Source of the DNA: an uncultured Opitutia bacterium | Lineage (GTDB): Bacteria > Verrucomicrobiota > Verrucomicrobiia > Opitutales > Opitutaceae | Assembly: GCA_903820035.1 (NCBI GenBank) | Contig: CAIJFT010000405.1 | Location: forward strand, 1-64,000 | Length of the DNA: 64,000 nt | Direction of reading: 5' to 3' | In this document: positions 27,675-29,061 of the stretch, in pieces | Position numbering within the stretch: position 1 is the stretch's first letter | Layout of the letters: each line of letters opens with the position of its first letter | Position numbers and translations under genes: made by a program | Notes under the pieces: generated by a model | What the model was told of the DNA's origin: nothing | Databases searched by the model: none | What the model saw: only the letters and a program-made list of their open reading frames with translations

Positions 27675-27897
27675 GGAGACGGCCGGCGTTTCCTGCAGTT
27701 GAAAACAAGTCCGGGCGGTGGGGCCGCAACCGACCCCATCGGGCCGGATCGAAACGTCGATCGGGCCGAAACGACCCGATGCGGGCAACCGGTCCCACCG
27801 ATTGTTCTCTCAACCCTCAACTCCCCGCGCTCAACCTCCGCAGCCTGACTCCGCTCTCGACAATCCCCCGCCATTCCCGTCTCGTGCCGTCGTCCGC

Positions 27898-27975
27898 ATG
27901 AATCTCCGCGCCGTCATTATTGCCGCCATTATTATGATGCCTCTGGCATCAGGGCGGCGGCGCGTGACCACTTAA
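27898..27975 (+). CDS. Candidate leader peptide MNLRAVIIAAIIMMPLASGRRRVTT
   Basis: 26-codon ORF with codons GTC ATT ATT GCC GCC ATT ATT ATG ATG; followed by attenuator-type alternative hairpins in front of a threonine dehydratase-type gene. Confidence 0.75.
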   Translation: MNLRAVIIAAIIMMPLASGRRRVTT

Positions 27976-28041
27976 TTCGACCGAAACAAGTCACCCGTTT
28001 TCCGAAGCCCTGAGCGCCAACGCTCAGGGCTTTTTGTTTTT
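27935..28041 (+). promoter_or_regulatory. Transcription attenuator (segments 1:2, 2:3, 3:4)
   Basis: 1 TGATGCC 27935-27941; 2 GGCATCAGGGC 27945-27955; 3 GCCCTGAGCG 28007-28016; 4 CGCTCAGGGC 28021-28030; then TTTTTGTTTTT. Confidence 0.8.
28006..28041 (+). terminator. Attenuator terminator hairpin
   Basis: AGCCCTGAGCG-CCAA-CGCTCAGGGCT, 11-bp perfect stem, then a T-rich tract. Confidence 0.92.
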
Positions 28042-28047
28042 CCGCCC

Positions 28048-29061
28048 ATGAATACCACCCGCCTCCCGGCCCTCAGCCTCGCTGATGTCGTCGCCGCCCG
28101 TCGCCTCCTGGCGTACGGATTGCGCCTGACGCCGTGCTCCCCCGCACCGGCGCTTTCGGAGATTACGGGCAGGTCGATTTGGCTCAAACGCGACGACCTG
28201 CAGCGCACCGGCTCGTTCAAGGAGCGAGGCGCGCGCCATGCCCTGCTGTGCCTCTCGCCCGAAGCGCGCGCCCGCGGCGTCATCGCGGCTTCGGCGGGCA
28301 ATCACGCGCTCGGACTCGCCTACCACGGCGCGCAGCTCGGCGTGCGCGTGACGGTTGTCATGCCCGTCGCGGCGCCCGAGGTGAAAGTCACCCGTTGCCG
28401 CAGCCTCGGCGCCGAGGTGGTGCTGCACGGCGCCGATTTTGAAGCGGCGCAGGTCCGCGCCCTGCAGCTTGCGAGCGCAGGCGGCGCGACGTTCGTGCAT
28501 CCCTTCGACGATCTCGACGTCATCGCGGGCCAGGGAACCCTCGCGCTCGAAATCCTCGAGCAGACGCCGCAACTCGACACGCTGGTCGTGCCGGTGGGCG
28601 GCGGCGGTTTGCTCGCCGGTGTCGCCACCGTCGTCAAGGCCCTGCGCCCCGACGTCCGCGTGATTGCGGTCGAGCCCGCGCATGCCGCCAGTTTCGTCGC
28701 GGCCTATCTGCACGGTGGTCCTGCTCCCGCGCGGTTGGCGCCGACCCTCGCCGACGGATTGGCCGTGGCGCGGATGGGAGCGACGACGTTCGCGCTCGCG
28801 GCGCCGCGGGTGGATGACGTCGTGACCGTGACGGAAAGTGAAATTGCCACCGCGATCGCCGTGCTGGCCCGGCGCTGCGGTGCCGTGGCGGAAGGTGCGG
28901 GCGCCACCGCACTCGCCGCGGTCCTCGCGGGCAAAATCGGAGGGCGTGTCGTCGTCGTGCCGGTGTGCGGCCGCAATATCGACGCGGGCGTCCATGCCGC
29001 CGTCCTCGCCACCGCCGCCGAACCGGCCCCGTTTCGCCACCCCGTCGCCCGCGCCGCCTGA
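28048..29061 (+). CDS. ilvA: Threonine/serine dehydratase (PLP-dependent, no C-terminal regulatory domain)
   Basis: IWLKRDDLQRTGSFKERGARHALL PLP-lysine motif; ASAGNHALGLAYHGAQLG; VPVGGGGLLAGVA; ends after the catalytic domain. Confidence 0.88.
   Translation: MNTTRLPALSLADVVAARRLLAYGLRLTPCSPAPALSEITGRSIWLKRDDLQRTGSFKERGARHALLCLSPEARARGVIAASAGNHALGLAYHGAQLGVRVTVVMPVAAPEVKVTRCRSLGAEVVLHGADFEAAQVRALQLASAGGATFVHPFDDLDVIAGQGTLALEILEQTPQLDTLVVPVGGGGLLAGVATVVKALRPDVRVIAVEPAHAASFVAAYLHGGPAPARLAPTLADGLAVARMGATTFALAAPRVDDVVTVTESEIATAIAVLARRCGAVAEGAGATALAAVLAGKIGGRVVVVPVCGRNIDAGVHAAVLATAAEPAPFRHPVARAA

Follow-up and report, generated by a model that had tools for sequence, protein, structure and literature searches.

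The gamma-proteobacterial attenuators of ilvGMEDA, ilvBN, thr, leu, trp and his share a design in which a leader peptide rich in regulatory codons is combined with 1:2, 2:3 and 3:4 hairpins and a terminator. In the Actinobacteria, the candidate ilvB leaders and the Corynebacterium ilvB-II motif and ilvBNC attenuator likewise have a short Ile/Val/Leu-rich ORF and a terminator (PMC1262725, PMC10272879, PMC11857589), and the hisS and hisZ leader peptides of bacilli (PMC2965389) are likewise examples of attenuation outside the Proteobacteria and Actinobacteria. In Streptomyces coelicolor, altering the regulatory codons in an ilvB leader of similar appearance is reported to have changed nothing (PMC1262725), so that anatomy alone is not proof.

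Here we examine a leader of this design that precedes an ilvA-type gene in the window, the whole 64,000-nucleotide stretch of Opitutaceae DNA that was analysed (Table 1). We think that it is very probably a ribosome-mediated transcription attenuator, sensing isoleucyl-tRNA and controlling ilvA. It differs from the gamma-proteobacterial attenuators in its phylum, in serving just one gene, either ilvA or cimA, in that segment 2 lies within the leader ORF, 5' of its stop codon, and in the presence of a second, inner antiterminator helix; no sequence relation to them was found, and there was no match at curated threshold to any Rfam family (His, Leu, Thr, Trp, ilvB and T-box leaders, and others). 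The actinobacterial leaders target ilvB(N)C, a shared step, whereas those of the Opitutaceae target the isoleucine-specific entry, ilvA or cimA. The bacilli hisS and hisZ leaders differ in having histidine codons, in serving aminoacyl-tRNA synthetase genes, and in belonging to the Firmicutes. In the searchable literature we found no attenuator from the Verrucomicrobia or Opitutaceae and none before citramalate synthase, so the suggestion of a first-pass annotation of this DNA, that the system may be undescribed in the Verrucomicrobiota, can be kept as provisional, leaving aside the survey of Lopatovskaya et al. (2010), which may cover the phylum. The mechanism is classical and known; it is the RNA family, the host phylum, the single-gene targets and the alternation between ilvA and cimA that appear to be undescribed.

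Table 1. Elements of the leader region and the gene behind it (window coordinates).
Element	Position	Strand	Remarks
Predicted promoter, -35-like hexamer TCGACA	27857-27862	+	in 20 ilvA1 leaders a T[C/G]GACA-type hexamer stands at -40 to -57 relative to the ATG, mostly 40-50 nt before it
-10-like box GTCTCG	27879-27884	+	GTTCTC/TTCTCT in relatives; spacing to hexamer nearly constant in most
Leader peptide ORF MNLRAVIIAAIIMMPLASGRRRVTT*, 25 aa, four ATT Ile codons	27898-27975	+	peptide conserved; orthologues differ in length by whole codons
Regulatory Ile codons ATT ATT, first pair	27916-27921	+	column conserved in relatives
Regulatory Ile codons ATT ATT, second pair	27928-27933	+	conserved in many relatives
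Segment 1: CGCGCC 27907-27912 and GCCGCC 27922-27927	27907-27927	+	pairs with 27959-27964 and 27953-27958; MFE fold; cognate better than swapped (0/5000 permutations, not a probability)
Small hairpin TGATGCC/GGCATCA atop 1:2 stem	27935-27951	+	GATTCG/CGAATC in relatives
Segment 2 TCAGGGC, copy of terminator 3' arm	27949-27955	+	relation also holds, in different sequence, for ilvA2, cimA, ilvD and ilvB leaders
Inner antiterminator helix, 5' arm GTGAC	27964-27968	+	covaries with 27990-27994
Inner antiterminator helix, 3' arm GTCAC	27990-27994	+	covaries with 27964-27968
Intrinsic terminator: 11-bp stem 28006-28016/28021-28031 and T-run 28031-28041	28006-28041	+	5' arm (28007-28013) is segment 3, 3' arm is segment 4
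ilvA-type threonine ammonia-lyase, 337 aa, without ACT domain	28048-29061	+	Pfam: PALP only; NCBIfam PRK07334/ilvA_1Cterm 352/320 bits

The coordinates in the first-pass annotation, for the ORF, the ATT pairs, TGATGCC/GGCATCA, TCAGGGC/GCCCTGA, the terminator stem, the T-run and the ilvA ATG, proved exact, and the fold of the region 27890-28060 was more stable than those of 200 of 200 dinucleotide shuffles (z -4.2). When both strands of the window were scanned for mini-ORFs that have four or more isoleucine codons and are followed by a terminator whose 5' arm finds a 7-base complement in the ORF, the leader at 27898 was the single match, and 0 of 2000 local shuffles of the leader region produced such a mini-ORF and terminator. 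The last isoleucine codon begins 18 nt 5' of segment 2. On two points the earlier description needs enlargement. Segment 1 had been taken to be TGATGCC, paired with GGCATCA; the hairpin exists, but it is only the top of a larger conserved 1:2 stem built of CGCGCC/GGCGCG and GCCGCC/GGCGGC. Similarly, the TCAGGGC/GCCCTGA pairing of the proposed 2:3 antiterminator is present, but an inner, covarying helix, GTGAC/GTCAC, was overlooked.

What gene does the leader serve? It had been called a threonine dehydratase-type gene under an attenuator. The product is a PALP-fold threonine ammonia-lyase and the start codon is where it had been placed, but a C-terminal ACT-type regulatory domain was not found in the window IlvA, for which Pfam reports the PALP domain alone, and the design extends beyond ilvA. 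The protein falls below the cut-offs of PRK07334 (352 of 496 bits) and of TIGR01127 and TIGR01124 (320 of 378.75 and 276 of 411 bits). From the leader we infer a biosynthetic role, with 2-oxobutyrate for isoleucine as the product. The leader-bearing IlvA proteins of the Opitutaceae are without an ACT domain, and an Ile-rich leader was not found before seven ACT-length Opitutaceae IlvA paralogues. One might suppose that the leader substitutes for a lost ACT feedback, but there is no such rule, as an IlvA of family f27 has both an ACT domain and a leader.

The first-pass annotation had looked to orthologues for conservation of the mini-ORF and the alternative pairings, and the 20 closest loci (group ilvA1) have kept both: the leader lies directly 5' of ilvA in 20 of 20, with its peptide, segment 2 and terminator conserved. 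The IlvA relatives behind these leaders, at 50-81% identity, come from the same genus and family, and include those of an Opitutus sp. MAG (L035, identical to L129) and an Opitutae MAG (L036, identical to L132), which suggests that the window belongs in or near the Opitutaceae of the Verrucomicrobiota. The consensus peptide is about MSLRAVIIAA(M/I)IMIxxxSGRRRVxx, and differences in leader length between orthologues amount to whole codons.

The three alternative helices, 1:2, outer 2:3 and inner 2:3, all fit better with their own partners than with swapped ones. For segment 2 and the terminator arm, over all groups, the cognate value is -15.2 versus -12.6 kcal/mol for swapped partners (0/5000 permutations as low), for the inner antiterminator helix it is -8.4 versus -7.2 (0/5000), and the 1:2 stem of the ilvA1 leaders also fits best with its own partner (0/5000); these permutation tests ignore relatedness, and the counts are not probabilities. 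Within the main leader group TCAGGGC is nearly invariant, because it is a copy of the terminator 3' arm, and the proof of the pairing comes from comparison between groups. In the ilvA2 and cimA leaders segment 2 is CCCGGGC and the terminator arm CCCCGGGC; in the ilvD leaders (L203, L204) they are GGGCGGC and GGCCGCCC; and in one ilvB leader, CCGGCA and GCCCTGCCGG. The inner helix is GTGG/CCAC, ATGG/CCAT or CGCGG/CCGCG in relatives, and because the terminator does not include it, the covariation is evidence for the 2:3 state as such. A terminator is present between the leader ORF and the structural gene in 74 of 74 catalogued leaders. By their overlapping segments, covariation and folds, the 2:3 antiterminator is mutually exclusive with both the 3:4 terminator and the 1:2 hairpin. 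Judged by comparison of sequences, then, the leader has the parts of an attenuator, and these are conserved, covarying and mutually exclusive.

Does transcription begin early enough to include the leader? A transcript beginning 3' of 27935 would have told against the earlier reading. A T[C/G]GACA hexamer and, about 21 nt 3' of it, a TTCTC-like box form a promoter-like pair that is conserved just 5' of the leader ATG, and transcription is therefore expected to start before 27935. The predicted start would leave few untranslated bases before the leader ATG. It counts against the attenuator that a Shine-Dalgarno sequence is absent before every leader examined, but one is found in at most one of eight window genes and none is visible before the ilvA genes, a pattern which suggests that Shine-Dalgarno-independent initiation is usual in the window genome. 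Positions at which the scarcity was noted are 22708, 25516, 28048, 29240 and 31110, and the leader start at 27898.

The leaders have a distinctive codon choice. The 83 isoleucine codons of the ilvA1 leaders comprise 72 ATT and 11 ATC, and 25 ilvA leaders together have 85 ATT and 25 ATC. The readable ilvA genes downstream, with 222 isoleucine codons, use ATC 185, ATT 33 and ATA 4 times, so that ATT in leaders (72/83) versus genes (33/222) gives a Fisher p of about 5e-32. That ATT is a non-preferred isoleucine codon, as first proposed, is borne out by eight window genes, with 91 ATC, 17 ATT and 1 ATA. The codon counts in the cimA leaders, 147/73/1, show a bias like that of the ilvA leaders. Attenuators are expected to use sensitive synonymous codons (PMC1183508). 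An alternative cause of the ATT bias may be RNA structure, with A and U keeping the isoleucine stretch unpaired. ATT and ATC are normally decoded by one and the same tRNA.

How would the switch operate? We modelled an RNA ending just past the terminator 5' arm, with a ribosome masking it to the 13th base from the penultimate isoleucine codon; the model is a fold calculation and not a kinetic simulation. A ribosome stalled on the isoleucine codons would cover segment 1 and leave segment 2 free, and in the model the 2:3 helix forms in 20/20 ilvA1 leaders with the stalled ribosome versus 6/20 without a ribosome, a prediction that supports the earlier stalled-ribosome interpretation. The ilvA2 leaders form 2:3 in 5/5 versus 2/5 cases. 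For the cimA leaders the two states are poorly separated (32/39 with the ribosome versus 27/39 without). Placing the ribosome on the stop codon instead gave the terminator in each of the three leaders looked at. When the full terminator is present in the RNA, it is the stabler fold even with a stalled ribosome, and the switch must therefore be kinetic, as in the classical model.

In the mechanism that we propose, transcription would start a few bases before the leader ATG, and a ribosome would trail the polymerase through the Ile-rich leader. With isoleucine plentiful, the ribosome would reach the stop codon, and segment 2, either covered or locked in the 1:2 stem, would be unavailable, so that the terminator would form and ilvA would go untranscribed. 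With charged tRNA-Ile scarce, the ribosome would stall at the ATT codons and cover segment 1; segment 2, together with the GTGAC/GTCAC helix, would then capture the emerging 5' arm of the terminator. The terminator being blocked, ilvA would be transcribed, providing 2-oxobutyrate for isoleucine. Ribosome stalling, read-through and isoleucine as the signal are what we infer for this leader.

Could the same elements serve another purpose? The terminator is a good one, and many weak model matches elsewhere are plain terminators, as might be expected if its role were to end a small RNA or a short transcript from upstream, with an incidental mini-ORF and with the ilvA promoter lying after it. That reading is extremely unlikely, given that the Ile-rich in-frame peptide, segment 2 and the covarying alternative helices are all conserved, and that about 6 bases between the T-run and the ilvA ATG leave no space for a promoter. 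The leader might instead act on translation, or on ribosome re-initiation at ilvA, which has no visible Shine-Dalgarno sequence and an ATG 72 nt past the leader stop codon; for leader peptides in general, re-initiation has been put forward (PMC4833913). We consider this very unlikely, however, for every leader has a GC-rich stem and T-run, segment 2 copies the terminator arm, and the ilvA start is untouched by the alternative pairing. A T-box or small-molecule riboswitch, sensing tRNA-Ile or isoleucine directly, would also be a terminator-based leader 5' of an amino-acid gene, but it can practically be dismissed here: the whole window lacks an Rfam match at gathering level, the sub-threshold matches in the leader are unrelated sRNAs catching the terminator hairpin, and the conserved part is an ORF.

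If the leader is an attenuator, as we hold, is isoleucine its only signal? Attenuation of the E. coli ilv operon is multivalent, and the ilvA1 leader peptides contain 10% Val, 7% Leu and 6% Met beside 17% Ile, as would suit a signal in which Ile is joined by other branched-chain or hydrophobic amino acids (Val, Met and Leu). The cimA leaders, however, have 24% Ile and little Leu, with Val outside the commonest residues, and IlvA and CimA supply only the isoleucine branch of the ilv pathway; a multivalent signal thus seems rather unlikely. Across groups the Ile share of the leader peptides is 17-24%, and the window leader has four ATT among 25 codons, in a conserved frame.

Which genes do such leaders precede in the Opitutaceae? 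We searched 252 genomes of the family with two covariance models, R1 and R2. R2 matched 96 of the 252 at E up to 0.001, with one match each and a single weak exception; the many weak R1 matches (E about 1e-5 to 1e-2) were plain terminators, and were discarded. The gene behind the strong and middle matches is ilvA in 25 genomes and cimA in about 50, one tested copy of the latter scoring 604 bits against TIGR00977 (cut-off 450). The product of cimA, citramalate synthase, is an alternative entry to 2-oxobutyrate and is unrelated to IlvA. An Ile-rich leader and a terminator directly precede cimA at L139, L142-L146, L150, L153, L167-L194, L196, L198, L200, L201, L209-L211, L215, L216, L224, L296-L298, L300 and L306-L311, in no case beside an ilvA leader. 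A cimA above the cut-off is present in 20 of 24 genomes with an ilvA leader, and in those genomes an Ile-rich leader with terminator is absent from 19 of 19 readable cimA upstream regions. In each genome, then, the attenuator serves one entry enzyme or the other. The window genome's own cimA (L226, G000:C288:32-1576) lies at a contig edge, with 19 nt before its ATG.

Do the two kinds of leader share an ancestor? The ilvA2 leader peptides (G030, G110, G228, G230, G235) score 15-23 bits against the cimA-leader profile, and 500 of 500 composition-preserving shuffles score below them (maximum 10.3); the cimA of those genomes has no leader. The ilvA1 peptides, the window's group, have a weak likeness to cimA leader peptides, and mostly none. 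By peptide sequence, a common origin is supported for the ilvA2 and cimA leaders only, and those of the window's group may have arisen independently. No gene neighbourhood common to the ilvA-leader and cimA-leader loci was found. Quite possibly, though we propose it tentatively, one isoleucine attenuator cassette has been re-used in the Opitutaceae on the non-homologous ilvA and cimA, marking the entry that is kept under isoleucine control even where both genes are present.

Class- and phylum-level relatives have the same design before ACT-bearing ilvA (L148, L151, L158), long-form ilvA (L301), ilvD (L203, L204), an IlvM-like small ORF (L166) and, in tandem, ilvB (L243, L312, L313, L314). The long-form IlvA of L301 (G166, genus g57) lies behind a leader MRTASARLLATTTIIISPIPG*, with Thr and Ile runs, and a terminator, possibly an independent attenuator. 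In genus g44, the ilvD leaders of L203 and L204 are MAVILLAPTSGRHSHT and MVVILLTPTSGRHSHS. In genus g60, a lone small ORF lies behind a terminator (L166 in G184, L170 in G185, L223 in G183); it bears a weak likeness to IlvM, the small subunit of acetolactate synthase 2 (E 0.0013, below cut-off), and at L166 and L223 a hydrophobic leader peptide lies 5' of it. In genus g62 (L195, L202, L206, L221), a leader rich in Thr, Ile and Met, MNHIKATAIIMMTKANTLRAGGMRRY*, in which the match of segment 2 is perfect, precedes a small ORF without a family match. In family f32, two tandem Ile/Val-rich leaders, each with a terminator, precede ilvB (L312, L313, L314 and L243, in G407, G354, G359 and G433); those of G407 are MKQFFNNINSMIIIIAAIIIGCGTAGCCC and then MNTMKFENSFSYIPALLVSDSFVVSIFIAIAIIISMIISVIIITPPGMA, and of the two it is the second in which segment 2 matches the terminator better. 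The tandem attenuators of Salmonella mgtCBR (PMC3641672) similarly have two short leader ORFs, but mgtCBR is a magnesium-transport operon, whereas the f32 leaders are Ile/Val-rich, have their own terminators and precede a biosynthetic gene; the window element is single.

Leader-peptide attenuation would thus reach a phylum without reports in the searchable literature, and more than 70 loci now serve as examples, along with the two covariance models. The covarying inner antiterminator helix and the strong ATT bias offer direct targets for mutagenesis. With a regulatory RNA on alternative, unrelated pathway-entry enzymes, it can be asked how attenuators are gained, moved and lost.
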